Below are positions 10,551 to 18,951 of a stretch of DNA of 64,000 nucleotides, one piece after another; position 1 is the stretch's first letter, and the number at the start of each line of letters is the position of its first letter. Source of the DNA: Veillonella magna DSM 19857 (GTDB taxonomy: Bacteria > Bacillota > Negativicutes > Veillonellales > Veillonellaceae). The position numbers and the translations under genes were made by a program. Below the pieces are notes generated by a model. That model worked only from the letters and a program-made list of their open reading frames with translations. It did no database searches and was not told the DNA's origin. The stretch spans positions 1-64,000 of the forward strand of contig NZ_AUAN01000003.1 in NCBI RefSeq assembly GCF_000428745.1, in the 5' to 3' direction.

Positions 10551-11147
10551 TTATAACGTGGTTGTAATGGCTACGACTTTTCCTTTATTCACATACATAT
10601 CAAGGGATACGGAATCCATAACACCATTACCAGTAGAAACAGAATACCTATATATTAACTCATACTTTATTTTGTGATTTCCCACATATCCGGTGCCACC
10701 TTCTACATCCAAATCTGTGGGTTGACCATATAAGTTTAATAATTTTGTTTCACTGTCACCGACGGCTAATCCTCTTTTTGTAACTGCACTACGATCAATA
10801 ATTACGGTGGCTATCACAAGTTTCTTATGAGTTGGATCGTTCGTAAAACGACCGGCAATAAAACCTAATCCTTTATAAAATAAAATCTCTTTATCTTCTA
10901 CAACAGAATTAAATCCGCCTTTGTTTTTATCTGGCCCCTTATACATGCCATTGACATTAATATTACCATGATACCGCTCTGTTGGTTCTCCGATATAATT
11001 AATCAATTGACTTTCAGGTATGTAATGAGTAATACCCAGAATATAATTTTCTCCTACCGGTAAAACAATAGTTGGTAATTTTGCTTGAGCCAAGCCTGTA
11101 CAACTTAACATAATAAATAGACTTAAGATGGATATAATTTTTTTCAT
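10551..11147 (-). CDS. Exported protein, paralogue of the convergent neighbour
   Basis: The protein has 198 residues from the chosen ATG, preceded by GGAGGAG at a suitable distance. The upstream in-frame ATG would place coding sequence over that ribosome site. It has a signal peptide (MKKIISILSLFIMLSC...) with cleavage after AQA. The motif RGLAVGDSETKLLNLYGQPTD matches RGVAVGDSLEKVYEVYGTPD of the convergent gene. An earlier ESQLINYIGEPTE looks like a second half-repeat, as in the neighbour. The cysteine in the signal region is not in a convincing lipobox. Function unknown; periplasmic location inferred. Confidence 0.7.
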   Translation of the reverse strand: MKKIISILSLFIMLSCTGLAQAKLPTIVLPVGENYILGITHYIPESQLINYIGEPTERYHGNINVNGMYKGPDKNKGGFNSVVEDKEILFYKGLGFIAGRFTNDPTHKKLVIATVIIDRSAVTKRGLAVGDSETKLLNLYGQPTDLDVEGGTGYVGNHKIKYELIYRYSVSTGNGVMDSVSLDMYVNKGKVVAITTTL

Positions 11148-11211
11148 AACATAACACTCCTCCGTATTAGTCATTCAATTAGGGTAGAGTCGTCATAGTT
11201 AAATGCTTACC

Positions 11212-11646
11212 TTATCCCCCGTAGCGTTCAATGAGGTAATCCATGGCTTCGATGTAACCATCCAAGCCGTGACCACGGATGGTTTTTTCCGCATAGTAGC
11301 CTACATAGGATATGTGTCGGAAGTCTTCGCGTTCCAACGGGTTGGTGATATGCACCTCCACCGTGGGAATGCCGACAGCTTTTAGTGCATCCAGCAAGGC
11401 TACCGATGTATGCGTATAGGCGGCGGGATTGATGACGATGCCATCGTATACGCCGTAGGCAGCTTGGATATAATCGACTAAATCCCCTTCATGATTACTT
11501 TGCTGGCAAGTAACGGTTACGCCGCAATGATTCGCATGGGCTTTGATGCGCTCCAAGAGGGCCGGGTAGGAGGTGCTGCCGTACAGCTGTGGTTCGCGAA
11601 GTCCTAACAGATTGATATTAGGACCGTTGATGATTAAAATGTTCAT
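11212..11646 (-). CDS. aroQ: 3-dehydroquinate dehydratase, type II
   Basis: The type II enzyme removes water from 3-dehydroquinate by a trans mechanism, third step of the shikimate pathway. The 144-residue length is normal. Visible are the N-terminal MNILIINGPNINLLGLREP with the active-site arginine/tyrosine loop, QSNHEGDLVDYI, INPAAYTHTSVALLDAL and the catalytic histidine in VEVHITN. The ATG has AAGGAGGAG upstream and overlaps the end of the aroE-aroK fusion by 29 bases, showing translational coupling. It is the last gene of the operon. Confidence 0.95.
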   Translation of the reverse strand: MNILIINGPNINLLGLREPQLYGSTSYPALLERIKAHANHCGVTVTCQQSNHEGDLVDYIQAAYGVYDGIVINPAAYTHTSVALLDALKAVGIPTVEVHITNPLEREDFRHISYVGYYAEKTIRGHGLDGYIEAMDYLIERYGG

Positions 11647-12874
11647 AAAACTCCTCCTTGATGAAGCGCACGGCGGCCATGGCATCGGTGCAGTCACATT
11701 GGGCTTGCGAAAAGGCTTCGTATAAAGGATAGCGCACGCGAGCCAGTTCACGAAGTCGGCCGATACCGCCGGTGGAGAGAATGCGATCCGCCGTGTCCAA
11801 TGATTCCAACGGTCGCTGAATCCAATAGATGCGTCCGTTTTGGCGAAGCAACGCATAGTTTTCGGGACGGGTGATAACGCCGCCGCCGGTGGCGATGATA
11901 GCGCCGGTTTCTTTGCACACATCATTTAGAATTTCTGTTTCCTTCTCGCGAAAGGCGGGTTCGCCGTGATTCTTAATGTATTGTGACGGATGTTCGTAGC
12001 GTTCTTCAAAGATGGCATCGCAGTCAAGTAAAGGACGACCGGTCTCTTTGGCTAAGGCTTCGCCGATAGTTGTCTTGCCCACGCCGGGCATGCCGATGAG
12101 AATAATATTTTCCTGTGCCGAGCGCATGGCGGTAATCATTTCGCGAATGCGTTCGATGGGAAACTGTGTATTCATAAATAATTCTGCAGCGTACACGCCT
12201 TGGGCAACGAGCATGGGTAACCCGTCGCTGTAGGGAATACCCATCTCTTCGGCATCGATGAGAAGCTGCGTGCGATACGGATTATAAATGACATCGGCTA
12301 CGCCTTCCAAGTGTTTGAAGGGGCGAATATCTATGAGGCGGCGCGGTGATTTGGGATACATGCCTACGGGAGTGGCGTTGATGATGATTTGTGCAGTATC
12401 GTAAAAGTCGGCAATGTCCTCATAGAACGGGGCGTTATGGCGTGATACATGTGTGGTATGAGCGGCCCCTAAATCGGTTACTACCGTGTGGATTGTACCG
12501 GATGTTGCACCGTCGCCGAGGATAAGAACATCCTTGCCGGCTACGTCGATGCCGGCGTTCTTTAATAAAAATACAAAGCCGTTGTAGTCGGTGTTATGCC
12601 CGAACCAACCGTCAGGGCGGCGGACCATGGTGTTTACGCAGCCTATTTTTTTGGCCGTATCGGATAGACGCGTACAATAGGGCATGACATCTTGTTTGTA
12701 AGGAATGGTGATATTAATACCGCGCAGCTCCGGATCGGCTAAGAAGCGTTCCAGCTGATGCGGTTCTTTTTCAAATAAGGTATAAACGGGATTGCCCAGG
12801 GCTGCGTGAATCTCGGGGGAATAACTATGACCCAAGGTTCGCCCCAGCAGTCCGAAGGCCGGTGTATGACTCAT
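11618..12874 (-). CDS. aroE-aroK: Bifunctional shikimate dehydrogenase / shikimate kinase (AroE-AroK fusion)
   Basis: One 418-residue frame carries two enzymes. Residues 1 to about 255 are shikimate dehydrogenase: LGHSYSPEIHAAL binds shikimate, NITIPYKQ has the catalytic lysine, NTDYNGF the aspartate, and ILGDGATSGT is the dinucleotide-binding turn in modified form. Residues from about 258 are shikimate kinase: Walker A GMPGVGKTTIGE, DCDAIFEE, GEPAFREKE with the substrate arginine, ATGGGVI, and RVRYPLY near the end. No stop or frameshift lies between them. The fusion would pass shikimate directly to its kinase. It sits 3 bases after aroC and overlaps aroQ. Confidence 0.94.
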   Translation of the reverse strand: MSHTPAFGLLGRTLGHSYSPEIHAALGNPVYTLFEKEPHQLERFLADPELRGINITIPYKQDVMPYCTRLSDTAKKIGCVNTMVRRPDGWFGHNTDYNGFVFLLKNAGIDVAGKDVLILGDGATSGTIHTVVTDLGAAHTTHVSRHNAPFYEDIADFYDTAQIIINATPVGMYPKSPRRLIDIRPFKHLEGVADVIYNPYRTQLLIDAEEMGIPYSDGLPMLVAQGVYAAELFMNTQFPIERIREMITAMRSAQENIILIGMPGVGKTTIGEALAKETGRPLLDCDAIFEERYEHPSQYIKNHGEPAFREKETEILNDVCKETGAIIATGGGVITRPENYALLRQNGRIYWIQRPLESLDTADRILSTGGIGRLRELARVRYPLYEAFSQAQCDCTDAMAAVRFIKEEFYEHFNHQRS

Positions 12875-12877
12875 TGG

Positions 12878-13972
12878 TTAACGCAGCTCCTTTTTTATTT
12901 CTACTAAAAAGTCTAACAGAACGAGGGCCACGACGGCTTCCACAACGGGAACAGCGCGCACGGCAATGCACGGATCGTGACGACCTTTAATTAAGAGGGA
13001 CGTATTTTCCTGCTTTTCAAAGGAGAAGCTGGGCTGTGGTTTTGAAATCGAAGCGGTAGGCTTCATACCTACGCGCAAGACAATAGGCATACCGTTGGTA
13101 ATACCGCCTTGGATACCGCCGCAGTGATTGGTTATGGTTTTTACGATGCCGTCTTCCAATACAAAGGGATCGTTTTCTTCACTGCCCAGATGATCACAGG
13201 CATCAAAGCCGGTGCCGAAAGCAACACCTTTTACGCCGGGAATACCGAAGATGGCACGGCTCATACGATTTTCGATGCCGTCAAAGTTAGGATTGCCCAT
13301 ACCGGCGGGGATGCCGGTGGCAAATACTTCAATGATGCCGCCGGTGGAATCGGAATCGTTCCGCAGGCGATCCAGTAAATTGATAGCGTTCAGGCGAGCC
13401 GTAGGGGATAGCATGGCAACGGTTTCAAAGCCAGCCTTGTGAAGGGCGTCCATATCGGGCGCGGTGTAGCTTACTTCGTCATCGTTCACCGTGCCTAAGC
13501 GGCGTAGATGCGCACCTACGCGAATACCTTCCTTGGCGAGAAGCTGTAAGGCAATACCGCCGGCACAACATAGTGGTGCCGTAAGACGACCGGAGAAGTG
13601 ACCGCCGCCGCGCATGTCCACGCTATCGCCGTAACGCACGCGCGCCGTATAATCGGCATGCGATGGGCGCGGTACATCGCGCAAATTATTGTAATCTGCC
13701 GATTGCTGATTGGTATTGGCAATATAAAAGGCTAACGGCGATCCGCTGAGCATACCGTCTACGATGCCAGATAGAAATATAGGTTCGTCTGCTTCCTTGC
13801 GCTGTGTGGTGACTAAGCTTTGACCGGGAGCGCGGCGCTTCATAAAGCGGCGCAGTTCTTCCAAATCAATGGTGTGTCCGCAGGGAAGTCCGTCAACGAC
13901 GGCACCGATAGCGGTGCCGTGGGATGTACCGAAGGTGGATATGTGAATGTGAGTACCGAAATCAGAGCTCAT
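12878..13972 (-). CDS. aroC: Chorismate synthase
   Basis: AroC makes chorismate from EPSP using reduced flavin as cofactor. The 364-residue protein has the family signatures FGTSHGTAIGAVVDG, RPSHADYTARVRYG, MRGGGHFSGRLTAPLCCAGG and the C-terminal GRHDPCIAVRAVPVVEA. A GGAGGTAACAG site precedes the ATG. It overlaps the upstream aroA by 11 bases and is followed after 3 bases by aroE-aroK, so translation is coupled. It completes the common aromatic pathway inside one operon. Confidence 0.96.
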   Translation of the reverse strand: MSSDFGTHIHISTFGTSHGTAIGAVVDGLPCGHTIDLEELRRFMKRRAPGQSLVTTQRKEADEPIFLSGIVDGMLSGSPLAFYIANTNQQSADYNNLRDVPRPSHADYTARVRYGDSVDMRGGGHFSGRLTAPLCCAGGIALQLLAKEGIRVGAHLRRLGTVNDDEVSYTAPDMDALHKAGFETVAMLSPTARLNAINLLDRLRNDSDSTGGIIEVFATGIPAGMGNPNFDGIENRMSRAIFGIPGVKGVAFGTGFDACDHLGSEENDPFVLEDGIVKTITNHCGGIQGGITNGMPIVLRVGMKPTASISKPQPSFSFEKQENTSLLIKGRHDPCIAVRAVPVVEAVVALVLLDFLVEIKKELR

Positions 13973-15215
13973 AGCTGTTACCTCCTAACGCTTGCCAATC
14001 ATCAAAGAATTGCGGATACGATTTAGTAATGGCTTCGCTGTCGCTGAGGGTGACGGGATTGTCACTGATGAGGGCCGCCAACGTGCCGGCCATGACAAGG
14101 CGATGGTCATTATAGCAATGGGCGCGGCCCCCCGTAAGTCGGCCGGTGCCGTTTACATACAGCGTGTCGCCGTCGATGTGAGCACTGCCGCCGAGGGAGG
14201 TAATCATCTCCGCCATGGCTGCCAGGCGATCGGATTCCTTGAGACGTAAACGCGCGCCATTGAAGAAGCGGCTTCGTCCTTCGATGCCGCAAGCTAAGAT
14301 GGACAAGATGGGAAGCAAATCCGGACATTGCTCTAAATCTACGTTAAGCGGCAGGGTAGCTTTGCCGGTGGTGGTAAGTCCTTCGGCAGTATAAGTTAAG
14401 GTAGTGCCGGCTTTCTCGATAATGGCGGCACTGCGGCGATCGGCTTGTACGGAATCGGCAGTGAGTCCGGTTACCGTAAAGGTTTGCCCGGTCAGTGCCG
14501 TAGCTACGAGCCAAATGGCTCCGTTCGACCAATCCCCTTCGATGGCATAGTCCTTTACACCGTGATAGTGACTGCCTTCGGGAATATGAAAGGTATCGCC
14601 GGTTACGTTGACGGTGACGCCGAAATCCTGAAGGACGCGAATGGTTAGGCGCACGTAATCACGCGACTGCAAGGGACCTTCACTGATGACGGTAGTTTCC
14701 CCCATCAGCGGAGCGGCGAGAAGCAAACCGGAGAAGAATTGGCTGCTAATGTTGCCGGCCATGGAGAAGGTACCTCCCGAAAGGAGTCCTGTCATGGTGA
14801 AGGGAGGCGCATCCTTGGAAAAGGTAACGCCGTGTGCTTTCATCTGTCCCAGTAAGGGCTCTAACGGACGCTGCGGCAAACGACCTTTTGCATCGACTTC
14901 GGTGGTGCGGCATAAAGCAGCGGCCACGGGAAGTAACAGACGTAAGGTGGTACCCGATTCATGGGGACGTACTTGCCCCGGTGAAGCTGGCGTTGTAATA
15001 GGATGCACACGAACACCGTCTTCGGTTCGTTCGATGGTAGCGCCTAAGCCGCACAGGGAATCTATGGTAGCATCGATGTCGCGAGACGAGCGATGAAATC
15101 GTATATGAGAAGCGGAGTCTGCCAGCGCGGCCGCCATAAGAGCGCGGTGCGCATGAGCCTTCGCAGGGATGGCCTTAATTGTGCCGCCGGGAATAGCAGC
15201 CGTAATGGTGCGCAT
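13962..15215 (-). CDS. aroA: 3-phosphoshikimate 1-carboxyvinyltransferase (EPSP synthase)
   Basis: AroA joins phosphoenolpyruvate to shikimate-3-phosphate. The 417-residue protein shows IPAKAHAHRALMAAALAD, a variant of the N-terminal substrate-binding IPxSKSxxxRALxxAALA; ESGTTLRLLLP in place of the usual N-[AS]-GT-xxRxL; GRLPQRPLEPL; and the C-terminal LRLKESDRLAAMAE and YNDHRLVMAGTLAAL. The wording is typical of anaerobic Firmicutes. AAAGGAGATGAAC precedes the ATG. About 200 bases separate it from aroB upstream, so an additional promoter is possible there. Confidence 0.96.
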   Translation of the reverse strand: MRTITAAIPGGTIKAIPAKAHAHRALMAAALADSASHIRFHRSSRDIDATIDSLCGLGATIERTEDGVRVHPITTPASPGQVRPHESGTTLRLLLPVAAALCRTTEVDAKGRLPQRPLEPLLGQMKAHGVTFSKDAPPFTMTGLLSGGTFSMAGNISSQFFSGLLLAAPLMGETTVISEGPLQSRDYVRLTIRVLQDFGVTVNVTGDTFHIPEGSHYHGVKDYAIEGDWSNGAIWLVATALTGQTFTVTGLTADSVQADRRSAAIIEKAGTTLTYTAEGLTTTGKATLPLNVDLEQCPDLLPILSILACGIEGRSRFFNGARLRLKESDRLAAMAEMITSLGGSAHIDGDTLYVNGTGRLTGGRAHCYNDHRLVMAGTLAALISDNPVTLSDSEAITKSYPQFFDDWQALGGNSYEL

Positions 15216-15413: not shown

Positions 15414-16571
15414 TCAAACATCGGCTAAGGAGGCCGTTAATTGTTCGGCCAAGGTTGCATGCGGTACAGTGATGCGTTCACTGTGACCGTGTGATGTAGG
15501 TACGATAATAGTCACATCAAGACCGTGACTTTTTTTGTCGTGACGGGCAGCTTCCAATACATAGTCCAGCGGCACCTCGGTCGTCACCGGTAGATGATGA
15601 GCGCGGAGCAGTTCGATGAGCTGCCGATATTCTTCGGCAGGCAGACCGTAATGGGTGAATCCCAAATGAGCCATCAAGGCGATCCCGATGGCAACGGCGT
15701 AGCCGTGAGGCATCGTGTAATGACTGTATTTTTCTAAGCCGTGCGCCAAGGTGTGACCGAGATTTAATAATTGGCGCTGCCCTTGTTCCGTTTCGTCCGC
15801 CGCTACAATGCGTGCCTTGGCGGCAACGCAGTGGGCGATGACATCGGTCAGATGTGAGCTTTGTGGTGTTAACGGCTCCTTAGTAAGCAAGCCCAGTAAG
15901 GCCGGATTATCCAGAAAGGTGTACTTCACAACTTCACCGCAGCCACCGATGAATTCTTCCCTGGGTAAGGTGTGAAGCACATCGGGATCACAAAATACGG
16001 CACGAGGCTGTTTAAAGGCACCCCACAAATTTTTACCGGCCGGTAAATTAACCGCTGTTTTACCGCCTACGGAGGAATCGACCATAGCCAATAGCGACGT
16101 GGGAATCTGCACGTACGCAATGCCGCGCATGTAAGTGGCAGCGGCAAAGCCGGTAATGTCACCGACAACTCCACCGCCGAGGGCAATGAGAACATCGCGG
16201 CGTGTTATGCAGTGATCGGCTAAAAAGTTGAGTATGTGCAGTAGTTGCTCCGGACTTTTTGATTCTTCCCCCGCCGGCAAGGTATATACCAAGGGCTCGT
16301 AATCGGCGGCTTGTAAGCTGCTTACGAGGCTATCCACATATAAAGGTCCCACATGGGTGTCGGTAATGATGACAGGATGACCGGCTACGGCCAACGCACG
16401 CATATGATGACCGACGGTGGCTAACAGACCGTGTTCGATGTGAACGGTATAGGCCGGCTCGGTATGAACCACAATGCGCCGCGTGTCACTGTGAAGCGCC
16501 GGTGCTTCCGTGCCGGCGGTGTGCGTTGCTGTGACCGATTCGTTCGTTGGGTGATGCAGTGAAGCTTTCAT
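15414..16571 (-). CDS. aroB: 3-dehydroquinate synthase
   Basis: AroB cyclises DAHP to 3-dehydroquinate using NAD and a divalent metal. Seen are PAGEESKSPEQL, the NAD-binding ALGGGVVGDITGFAAATYMRG, VDSSVGGKTAVN, and the metal ligands in GGCGEVVKY and NLGHTLAHGLEKYS. The conserved part begins near residue 33 (IVVHTEPAYTVHIEHG); the first 30 residues are a Thr/Ala/His-rich extension. The ATG with AGGAGG five bases upstream supports the long form. It is 9 bases downstream of aroF. Confidence 0.95.
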   Translation of the reverse strand: MKASLHHPTNESVTATHTAGTEAPALHSDTRRIVVHTEPAYTVHIEHGLLATVGHHMRALAVAGHPVIITDTHVGPLYVDSLVSSLQAADYEPLVYTLPAGEESKSPEQLLHILNFLADHCITRRDVLIALGGGVVGDITGFAAATYMRGIAYVQIPTSLLAMVDSSVGGKTAVNLPAGKNLWGAFKQPRAVFCDPDVLHTLPREEFIGGCGEVVKYTFLDNPALLGLLTKEPLTPQSSHLTDVIAHCVAAKARIVAADETEQGQRQLLNLGHTLAHGLEKYSHYTMPHGYAVAIGIALMAHLGFTHYGLPAEEYRQLIELLRAHHLPVTTEVPLDYVLEAARHDKKSHGLDVTIIVPTSHGHSERITVPHATLAEQLTASLADV

Positions 16572-16580
16572 GAGAGCCTC

Positions 16581-17585
16581 CTAGCGGCGAAGCGCATTGC
16601 GCAAAGCTGTTACATCGCGAGTGACTTCATCGAAGGCATCCGGTGTCAAGGCTTGCGGTCCGTCGCATAATGCTTTGGCCGGATTGTTGTGCACTTCAAT
16701 GATTAAACCGTCTGCACCGGCACCGGTCGCGGCCAAGGATAAGGGATGTACCATGCGGCTCATGCCGGCGGCATGACTGGGGTCGATGATTACCGGTAAA
16801 TGCGTCAGCTCGTGCATCATGGGAATGGCGGTGACATCCAAGGTATTGCGCGTTTTCGTTTCGAAGGTGCGAATGCCGCGTTCGCAAAGCACTACCTGAT
16901 GGTTGCCTTCGCTCATAATGTATTCTGCTGCCATCAACCACTCTTCGTATGTGGCACTGAGACCGCGTTTTAAGAGGACCGGTTTATCCAATTTGCCCAC
17001 TTCCTTGAGCAAGGTGAAGTTTTGCATATTGCGCGCGCCGATTTGCAGCATGTCTACGTCTTCGAATAGGGGCAACTGGGAAATGTCCATAATTTCCGAT
17101 ACGATGGGCAGTCCCGTTTCTTTTTTTGCTTCTAACAATAATTCAATACCGTCGGCCCCCATGCCCTGGAAGGAGTACGGGGAGGAACGAGGTTTGAACG
17201 CACCGCCGCGAAGGATGGTAGCACCGGATGCTTTTACCTGTTGGGCAATATCAATAATTTGTTCGCGAGATTCTACGGAGCACGGGCCGGCGATCATAGC
17301 GAAGTGACCACCGCCGATTTTAACACCGCTTACATCGACTACGGTATCTTCCGGATGAAGGCGACGCGTTGCATTTTTGTACGGTTCCTGAATGCGCGTA
17401 ATTTTTTCTACTACCGGCATAGACTCGATGAGTCGGCCGTCGAGAGAGGAGGTATCACCGATTAAACCGATAAGGGTATATTTTTCCCCAATCCATGTAC
17501 GCACCTGCAGGCCGAACGACTCCAGCCATAAAATTAAACTCTGAATCTCTTCTTCTCTTGCGTTTTGTTTTACTGTTACAATCAT
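16581..17585 (-). CDS. aroF: 3-deoxy-7-phosphoheptulonate (DAHP) synthase, type I-beta with regulatory N-domain
   Basis: This enzyme starts aromatic biosynthesis from phosphoenolpyruvate and erythrose-4-phosphate. The first about 70 residues form a ferredoxin-like regulatory domain ([18 protein letters not shown]), as in the Thermotoga-type enzymes, followed by the barrel with [45 protein letters not shown] and DPSHAAG. The length of 334 residues is normal for that class. The ATG has TTTTGGAGGTC upstream. It is the first enzyme gene of the operon and lies 70 bases after a terminator preceded by an aromatic-rich leader peptide, which is where one expects attenuation control. Confidence 0.95.
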
Positions 17586-17647: not shown

Positions 17648-17691
17648 GCAAAATAAAAAGGCTACCCGTAAGGATGTACGGGTAGCCTTTT
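17648..17691 (-). terminator. Attenuator terminator upstream of aroF
   Basis: A 15-bp perfect stem (arms 17677-17691 and 17656-17670, AAAAGGCTACCCGTA / TACGGGTAGCCTTTT in the transcript) has a 6-base loop and is followed by TATTTTG. It lies after the leader-peptide stop codon and before aroF, in the transcription direction of the aro operon. It can also be read as the end of the nrdAB transcript, but its place after the leader frame and its complementarity to the leader favour an attenuator. Confidence 0.85.
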
Positions 17692-17758
17692 GGCTTTATA
17701 AGCGCGTTGGATTACTTAACCGAAGTTTTAGCGCAGCCCAAACAATCCTTACCAATAG
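17662..17758 (-). promoter_or_regulatory. Candidate antiterminator pairing of the aro leader
   Basis: The leader segment at 17745-17758 can pair with 17662-17675, which is the terminator loop plus most of its 3' arm: 13 of 14 positions pair, including eight consecutive Watson-Crick pairs (GUAAGGAU with AUCCUUAC) and two G-U. A competing upstream hairpin brings 17790-17797 (GCAGCCCA in the transcript) to 17733-17740 (TGGGCUGC), with an inner stem 17761-17767 / 17749-17755. The aromatic codons lie at 17766-17789, in the first arm of that hairpin, so a stalled ribosome would open it and free the antiterminator. Confidence 0.65.
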
Positions 17759-17816
17759 AGTTGGTAAAGAAGTAATACCAAAAAAAGTATGGGCTGCTCA
17801 TTACTCGGTTATGCAT
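17712..17816 (-). CDS. Aromatic-rich leader peptide of the aro operon
   Basis: A 34-codon frame starts at ATG with AAGGAG ten bases upstream and ends with TAA about 20 bases before the attenuator stem. Residues 10-17 are Tyr-Phe-Phe-Trp-Tyr-Tyr-Phe-Phe, eight aromatic codons in a row and three of the end products of the downstream pathway. No signal or domain is recognisable; DCLGC near the end is a short cysteine pair without known meaning. A run of regulatory amino acid codons in a short translated frame before a terminator is the hallmark of leader peptides such as those of trp and phe operons. The frame is also open upstream over 41 codons, but that part would overlap the promoter. A small functional protein is the alternative. 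Confidence 0.8.
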   Translation of the reverse strand: MHNRVMSSPYFFWYYFFTNSIGKDCLGCAKTSVK

Positions 17817-17851
17817 CGTATTCACGCTCCTTTTGCTTAAGTGTTGGCAAT

Positions 17852-17881
17852 ATTGTAACGCCATACGCATATAAAAAGCAA
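17852..17881 (-). promoter_or_regulatory. Promoter of the aro leader
   Basis: On the minus strand TTGCTT (17881-17876) and TACAAT (17857-17852) are 18 bases apart. Transcription would begin about 30 bases before the leader-peptide ATG and just after the nrdB stop, giving the aro operon a transcript of its own. Confidence 0.65.
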
Positions 17882-17922: not shown

Positions 17923-18951
17923 TTATTCCAAGTCGTCAAAGTCGAAGGCGGCTGCTTTCGTATAATTGGTTACCTTCGCTTCAAAGAAGTCCGTCTTGGT
18001 GCTGTTCAGATTGGAGAAGCTTTCAATCCAAGCCATAGGATTTTCCTTGATGTCCGGGTAGAGCGGCTTGAGGCCGATCGCATCGAGACGCAGGTTAGCC
18101 AGGTATTTAATGTAGCGTTCGATAAGGACATTGTTGATGCCCAAAATCTTATCATCCGTAATGTACTGACCCCATGCGATTTCATGCTCCGTACCTTGGC
18201 GCAGCATGTCGACTAATTCGTCTTCCAGTTCCGGTGTAAATAATTCCGGTCGCTCCGTGCGCAGTTCCTTGATGATGTTCTGGAATAAAATGAGATGCGT
18301 TACTTCGTCGCGGTTAATGTATTTGAAGATTGTACTGGTAGCCGTCATCTTGCCTTGGCGGGCCAAGGTGTAGAAGAAGCTGAAACCGGAATAGAAGTAA
18401 ATGCCTTCCAAAATATAATTGGCCATAATGGTGCGAATGAAATTATGTTCCGACGGATCGTCGCTGAACCGCTGATAGATGTCGGCGATAAAGCGGTTTC
18501 GATTCAATAAGTGTTCATCCGTGCGCCATTCGTCGTAAATCTGATCGCGGGTGATCGGATTGGTTACGGTGTCGAGAATGTACGAATAGCTTTGGGCATG
18601 AATTTCTTCTTGGAACGCTTGGATGTTGAGCAGCGAAGCTACTTCGGCTGCCGTTACGTAGCGACTCAGGTTCGGCAGATTTTCACTTTGAATGGAGTCG
18701 AGGAAGTTTAAGAAGGAAATAATTTTATCGAAGGCGCGGCGTTCGCTGTCCGTCAAATAAGGAAACTGCTTAACGTCTTCGTTTAAAGAAATTTCTTCGG
18801 GAATCCAGAAGTTGTTGAGCATGGTGCGATACAATGTATTGGCCCAATCGTATTTGATGCGGTTCCATTCGCGCAGGTTAGTAGTATTGCCGCCGATCAT
18901 GCTTTCCGTACCACGATCGCCGTGTTCGTTGAATATTAATTTTTTATCCAT
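17923..18951 (-). CDS. nrdB: Ribonucleoside-diphosphate reductase, beta subunit (class Ia-like)
   Basis: The R2 subunit holds the di-iron centre and tyrosyl radical needed by NrdA to make deoxynucleotides. The 342-residue protein has the carboxylate/histidine ligands in FLDSIQSENL, EEIHAQSYSYIL (with the radical tyrosine close by), LEGIYFYSGF and RDEVTHLILF. The C-terminal tail, ending AFDFDDLE, is the segment that docks on the alpha subunit. AAGGAGG lies nine bases before the ATG. It follows nrdA after 209 bases. Confidence 0.95.
   Translation of the reverse strand: MDKKLIFNEHGDRGTESMIGGNTTNLREWNRIKYDWANTLYRTMLNNFWIPEEISLNEDVKQFPYLTDSERRAFDKIISFLNFLDSIQSENLPNLSRYVTAAEVASLLNIQAFQEEIHAQSYSYILDTVTNPITRDQIYDEWRTDEHLLNRNRFIADIYQRFSDDPSEHNFIRTIMANYILEGIYFYSGFSFFYTLARQGKMTATSTIFKYINRDEVTHLILFQNIIKELRTERPELFTPELEDELVDMLRQGTEHEIAWGQYITDDKILGINNVLIERYIKYLANLRLDAIGLKPLYPDIKENPMAWIESFSNLNSTKTDFFEAKVTNYTKAAAFDFDDLE

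Follow-up and report, generated by a model that had tools for sequence, protein, structure and literature searches.

A putative ribosome-mediated attenuator leader upstream of aroF in Veillonellaceae and other Bacillota

We propose that the nrdB-aroF gap of the window, the 64,000-nucleotide stretch of contig NZ_AUAN01000003.1 analysed here, carries a putative ribosome-mediated transcription attenuator of the classical type, and we put the probability of this reading at roughly 90%. Comparison among relatives shows a conserved coding run, a terminator and both alternative helices; translation of the leader, ribosome stalling, read-through and a response to amino acids are what we infer. As a family in this place, the aroF leader appears to be new; the kind of element is known, and its mechanism would be classical. 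The original prediction, made from the window's letters, had placed a leader peptide and attenuator over the aro operon, and it draws support from the run, the terminator and the stems found in relatives.

The leader frame and the operon behind it

The elements of the leader and its surroundings, all on the minus strand of the window, are the following.

ends at 17923, minus strand: nrdB, upstream of the leader
17852 to 17881, minus strand: promoter-like site, TTGCTT (17881-17876), 18-nt spacer, TACAAT (17857-17852), read from the sequence
17827 to 17832, minus strand: Shine-Dalgarno sequence AAGGAG of the leader, read from the sequence
17712 to 17816, minus strand: leader peptide ORF of 34 aa, MHNRVMSSPYFFWYYFFTNSIGKDCLGCAKTSVK, from sequence reading and homologues in relatives
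17766 to 17789, minus strand: eight-codon aromatic run Y F F W Y Y F F, where the ribosome is proposed to stall, from the sequence and F/Y interchange in relatives
17733 to 17797, minus strand: 1:2 hairpin, made up of an outer stem (17797-17790 with 17740-17733) and an inner stem (17770-17761 with 17755-17746), from folding, compensatory changes and the cognate pairing test
17733 to 17757, minus strand: region 2, the antiterminator strand, with a family pairing of 17757-17750 with 17684-17677
17656 to 17691, minus strand: intrinsic terminator with a stem of 15 bp, a loop of 6 nt and, downstream of 17656, a U-rich tail, from folding and compensatory changes

The frame opens with the ATG at 17816 and closes with the stop at 17714-17712, so that a 34-codon frame with its own Shine-Dalgarno sequence and eight consecutive aromatic codons between nrdB and aroF, as predicted, is confirmed from the sequence. 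In same-genus relatives of the window, TTGCCA-17-TATAAT occupies the place equivalent to the promoter-like site; we regard a promoter just before the leader as putative, since a consensus promoter scan of the window did not list the site.

Six ORFs downstream of the leader provide all seven shikimate steps, as had been predicted.

16581 to 17585, minus strand: aroF, type I DAHP synthase with an N-terminal ferredoxin-like (FXD) domain (PF00793, PF18152)
15414 to 16571, minus strand: aroB, 3-dehydroquinate synthase
13962 to 15215, minus strand: aroA, EPSP synthase
12878 to 13972, minus strand: aroC, chorismate synthase
11618 to 12874, minus strand: aroE-aroK fusion, shikimate dehydrogenase and shikimate kinase in one ORF
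11212 to 11925, minus strand: aroQ, type II dehydroquinase

The dehydroquinase domain sits at residues 95-231 of its ORF, and the true start of aroQ is therefore placed inside 11212-11925. A 207-aa ORF without a Pfam match (window 10551-11174) lies downstream of aroQ on the same strand. The nearest solved relatives of the window's AroF include 1rzm/3pg9, which we take to be an enzyme inhibited by aromatic amino acids; such inhibition of the DAHP synthase would add an allosteric control of this step to that by the leader.

Because the leader peptide, used as a search query, had the window itself as its only significant match, aroF was chosen as the anchor for collecting leaders. The gene and its upstream DNA were sampled from named public genomes, from Veillonellaceae genomes and from a phylum sample, and a leader was recorded where a frame with a start codon held at least 5 aromatics in 9 codons and ended 40-360 nt before aroF. 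The comparison set consists of 72 de-duplicated leaders with a terminator. A Shine-Dalgarno sequence of at least 4 nt precedes 65 of the 72, and 69 start with ATG. The best aromatic count per nine codons averages 6.4 in the leader frame against 2.1 and 2.2 in the other two, a contrast somewhat favoured by the codon window having been chosen in the leader frame, and that frame has the highest count in 71 of the 72.

The aromatic codons of these leaders (460 in total) comprise 229 for Phe, 215 for Tyr and 16 for Trp. Phe and Tyr replace each other at homologous positions, with counts of Y18/F4, F13/Y7, Y16/F6 and F17/Y6 at four successive ones, and the conserved F/Y positions use both third bases. 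Since Phe and Tyr codons replace each other so freely, we propose that the leader reads the two amino acids as one pool, which would suit a switch for the common pathway. All three aromatic amino acids had been predicted to be sensed; this is supported for Phe and Tyr, but not as a rule for Trp, which occurs in only 16 of the 72 leaders. Most Veillonellaceae leaders do contain Trp, with Gly instead in two (L109, L041), and Trp sensing would thus be at best a local feature.

The same substitutions bear on whether the peptide rather than its codons matters. If the leader encoded an arrest peptide, the nascent chain, and not the supply of charged tRNA, would stall the ribosome in response to a free ligand, and the partial conservation of downstream residues F-T/I...G-K in part of the family could be read in this way. 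However, the codons of these residues lie in the inner stem of the hairpin, so that RNA pairing explains their conservation, while Phe and Tyr interchange and the flanking residues vary widely. We therefore hold an arrest peptide to be quite improbable and retain a codon run as the proposed stalling site.

Alternative helices and the arm taken by the antiterminator

Folding supports the two hairpins of the leader. The terminator (17691-17656) has a free energy of -23.9 kcal/mol and a z-score of -8.5, and its predicted 15-bp stem following the leader is confirmed, with a 6-nt loop and U-rich tail. The leader as a whole folds with a z-score of -7.8, none of 200 shuffles folding as well, and the 1:2 hairpin is present in both its MFE and its centroid folds. 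The hairpin had been predicted with the aromatic codons in its first arm; its outer arm is as claimed, and its inner stem amounts to 10 bp. Across the 72 leaders, the terminator lies 9-67 nt past the leader stop.

Both structures are maintained in relatives. In A1, the Veillonellaceae alignment, 98.8% of the cells in the inner hairpin and terminator hold a pair, and 7 of the pairs are changed on both sides versus 2.4 in shuffles; in A2, the wider alignment, the hairpin has 38 cells changed on both sides versus 15.9 when shuffled. We also compared the duplex energy of each leader with its own terminator to that with the terminators of other genomes. These pairing tests draw on related sequences, and the noncognate pairs have the same relatedness. 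For the duplex of the run (region 1) with region 2, the energies in the 72 leaders are -28.7 kcal/mol for cognate versus -18.25 kcal/mol for noncognate pairs, a difference of 22 SD. The conservation of the run and stems in related genomes, a check that accompanied the original prediction, was thus run and borne out.

The same approach indicates which part of the terminator region 2 would capture. With the terminator 5' arm and loop, the cognate energy is -14.5 versus -11.05 kcal/mol for noncognate pairs, 12 SD from permutation (p 0.0002; 72 leaders). The 5' arm alone likewise gives a cognate signal (p 0.0002), loop plus 3' arm a weak one (p 0.013), and the 3' arm alone none across the 72 leaders (p 0.44). 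For the 5'-arm antiterminator, A1 has 96.8% of cells paired, versus at most 38.5% when it is slid; this support is conservation rather than covariation, as the helix hardly varies. On this comparative evidence, the putative antiterminator takes up the terminator's 5' arm and loop, the arrangement known from textbook attenuators.

In the original prediction, the antiterminator of the attenuator was to pair with the terminator's loop and 3' arm, and so with its 3' rather than its 5' side. The pairing on which it was based, 17745-17758 with 17662-17675, is real in the window sequence, with 13 of 14 positions complementary, and at -16.5 kcal/mol it equals there the -16.7 kcal/mol of the 5'-arm-plus-loop version. 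In the 23 aligned relatives, however, it falls to 5-7 of 14 positions in every case, whereas the 5'-arm pairing reaches 7-8 of 8 in 23 of the 24 aligned sequences, and the 3' arm lacks a cognate signal across the 72 leaders. A 3'-arm antiterminator was accordingly rejected for the family, pairing of that strength being found only in the window genome, and we consider it an unlikely version of the switch. In the window genome, region 2 has an extra pairing of AAGGAU-GUUUGGG (from 17749) with ACCCGUACAUCCU.

Folding of growing prefixes of the window RNA is consistent with capture of the 5' arm and loop. When a ribosome is placed on the run and the RNA extends to the terminator loop, the antiterminator is the MFE structure and pairs AGGAU-GU-UGGG with ACCC-GU-ACAUCCU; in a slightly later prefix, for one stall position, it extends into the first bases of the 3' arm. 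Without the ribosome, the 1:2 hairpin persists instead. For the full-length RNA, equilibrium folding favours the terminator (probability about 0.999) even when the ribosome is stalled, and therefore the switch must be kinetic, as in other attenuators. The computed 1:2 and 2:3 helices are mutually exclusive, as this class of attenuator requires.

The following sequence of events would fit these structures. The leader would be translated while RNA polymerase moves through the region. With charged tRNA-Phe and tRNA-Tyr ample, the ribosome would pass the aromatic run and reach the stop; with region 2 then covered or folded back onto region 1, the terminator would end transcription before aroF. With either charged tRNA scarce, the ribosome would stall in the run and block region 1, leaving region 2 to pair with the newly made terminator 5' arm and loop; no terminator would form, and the whole aro operon would be transcribed. 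In the window, about 20 nt separate region 2 from the leader stop downstream of it, and therefore, unlike in Veillonella, a ribosome at the stop would not cover region 2; in this genome the 1:2 hairpin would have to sequester region 2 in its place. If the attenuator works, transcription-translation coupling must let RNA polymerase read a stalled ribosome in these bacteria. Such coupling in Gram-positive bacteria is debated.

A terminator and hairpin at this site might merely end nrdAB transcription, with the short frame spurious, and the setting of the window would allow it: nrdB ends at 17923, directly upstream on the same strand, and the arrangement recurs in the same genus. In Veillonella, however, nrdB is 1.6-3.5 kb away, and it is absent from the Clostridia loci, while leader and terminator stay with aroF; in addition, the terminator covaries with region 2 of the leader. 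An nrdAB terminator is thus a very improbable account of the site, and we keep to an attenuator of aroF.

A separate long-range pairing was seen in A1, where columns 13-17 pair with 162-166 (SD/GCGCU; window about 17830-17826 with about 17700). The partner of the leader Shine-Dalgarno sequence is a GGCUU-like segment past the leader stop, and the pairing is conserved in A1 with some two-sided changes. It might shut off leader translation in the finished RNA.

T-boxes and described leaders

In teaching, leader-peptide attenuation is assigned to Proteobacteria and the T-box, as its counterpart, to Firmicutes. The T-box model has 14 matches in the window's genome, 5 of them over the cut-off, linked to valS, cysS, ileS, thrS, pheS, leuA, metA and other genes. 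One, below the Rfam gathering score, is upstream of a chorismate-binding gene that we take as trpE (contig C15; L236 696-954), and a UGG was read by eye near its specifier position. With T-boxes so widespread in this genome, including upstream of trpE and pheS, a T-box or other aptamer riboswitch binding tRNA or a metabolite could be expected before aroF as well. Yet no Rfam T-box (RF00230) or riboswitch matches at the site, whether at the gathering score or with E up to 5, the T-box search of the whole genome likewise places none there, and what is conserved is an aromatic reading frame and complementary strands rather than an aptamer. We consider such a riboswitch highly unlikely here. In the same genome, no leader was seen in the sequence upstream of pheA or tyrA, and no T-box match occurs at pheA, nor near tyrA in the genome-wide list.

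With a leader at aroF and T-boxes at trpE and pheS, we therefore suggest a division of labour, in which the leader peptide would serve the common aromatic pathway and T-boxes the Trp branch and Phe-tRNA charging. If this is true, the aroF attenuator would replace a T-box at one branch point, with T-boxes keeping the Trp and Phe-tRNA branches. Both kinds of regulator would then split the aromatic pathway within one genome. The leader itself occurs in many anaerobic Bacillota of gut and mouth.

The trp, phe and his leaders of Proteobacteria consist of a short leader with a run of codons for the regulated amino acid, three competing helices and an intrinsic terminator. The aroF leader shares with them the codon run, the competing helices and the terminator. 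Its best score with Rfam Phe_leader (RF01859) is 25 bits against a gathering score of 55, mainly matching the terminator, and indicates no sequence relation; unlike these Proteobacterial leaders, the aroF leader would pool two amino acids, and it precedes the first gene of the common pathway. Searches of Rfam, Pfam and NCBIfam with the leader element returned no matching entry, and it would be an entry missing from RNA family libraries.

The open-access literature, with subscription papers and supplements outside its scope, yielded no description of this family. The nearest described item, as compared by text description, appears to be uORFC-13-1, a candidate uORF before aroF of Acholeplasma for which attenuation was proposed (Brewer et al. 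2021, PMC8632094). Like the aroF leader, it precedes aroF, has at least one Phe codon and lies immediately before a terminator; unlike it, the 24 sequences come only from Acholeplasma and unassigned environmental DNA, and the main text, the basis of this comparison by description, states neither a Phe/Tyr run family nor an antiterminator pairing. The same paper reports Veillonella motifs, the aroF leader not being among them in the main text.

Such a leader had been called unusual in a Firmicute, which does not hold: his and ilv leader attenuators are known there (PMC2965389, PMC9413887, PMC5794164), and the aroF leader itself is widespread. Ribosome-mediated his-leader attenuators have been predicted in Bacilli, Peptostreptococcaceae and Erysipelotrichales, and differ in their His codons, their his/hisS genes and their lineages (PMC2965389, PMC9413887). 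In the S. aureus ilv-leu leader, promoter activity changes upon depletion of Leu and when the leader is mutated; it too is a Firmicute leader peptide with two kinds of sensed codon (Ile and Leu), but it belongs to the branched-chain pathway, and its antiterminator spares the terminator stem-loop and sequesters the U-tail (PMC5794164). The T-box leaders of aromatic genes in Bacillota, for example of a tyrosine operon, likewise read tRNA charging and control a terminator, but they bind uncharged tRNA directly, with no translated leader (PMC2494555).

Distribution and descent of the leader

This aroF is carried by 27 of 28 genomes of the family, and a homologous leader precedes it in the other Veillonellaceae genomes examined. 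One Veillonellaceae locus, present twice in the sample (L025/L106), is below the threshold and has a weaker run, VYAYFNF. Upstream of AroF of at least 70% identity, leaders were found in 38 of 40 cases versus 11% of dinucleotide shuffles; the figures are 70 of 78 versus 16% at 59-70% identity, and 17 of 74 versus 6% below 59%. Within the leader-bearing identity band, a leader went undetected for about 10% of the genes. The hosts include Veillonella, Anaerococcus, Miniphocaeibacter, Anaerovorax, Clostridium aminobutyricum, Emergencia, Negativibacillus, Anaerotignum, Christensenella and many Oscillospiraceae and Lachnospiraceae assemblies. A working leader would also offer a way to find out which of the aromatic amino acids are limiting for Veillonella and Oscillospiraceae.

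R1, a covariance model built on the run and hairpin, gave 8 hits in 7 of 299 genomes, and every hit lies immediately before the aroF of its genome; as a limited first look, this speaks for specificity, not sensitivity. A genome-wide search of the window's genome for aromatic runs, swamped by chance T-rich tracts and membrane-protein frames, gave no further recognisable leader among the stretches fetched.

One large clade of the AroF tree (Oscillospiraceae, Lachnospiraceae, Peptoniphilaceae, Anaerovorax and others) holds most of the leaders, and the second main clade is mostly without them. Veillonellaceae AroF form one clade (support 100/99), nested with Miniphocaeibacter, Anaerococcus and a Tissierellia assembly in a group supported at 99/97, and they do not group with the second family sampled from their order (L173, L174). 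Forcing the two same-order families together is rejected (p-AU 0.016), a somewhat favourable value in that the group was picked after a quick tree. Most likely, therefore, Veillonellaceae took over aroF together with its leader from a Peptoniphilaceae-like lineage. On balance we lean towards a large unnamed family of aroF attenuators in Bacillota, one that would pool Phe and Tyr for the shikimate pathway, be inherited with one AroF lineage and move with the gene between classes, as from a Peptoniphilaceae-like lineage to Veillonellaceae.

Megasphaeraceae, a family name that we assign from kinship in the same order, and some other families have a second form, with F-S-A-G-[YF]-F. Loci of this subtype, with F-S-[AT]-G-[YF] after the run, are L173, L174, L182, L191, L192, L205, L189 and L221, and their hosts belong to families whose AroF fall outside the main leader clade. 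In Miniphocaeibacter massiliensis (L039), aroF is a tandem pair, with a leader found only upstream of the first copy. At another locus (L148 2480-2960, minus strand), two leader-terminator units stand in series before one aroF, MYNNFVFSNSFFSFTNFFSKVI and then MNNLHNSTISFVFFFGFVFFTRLC, each with its own terminator.
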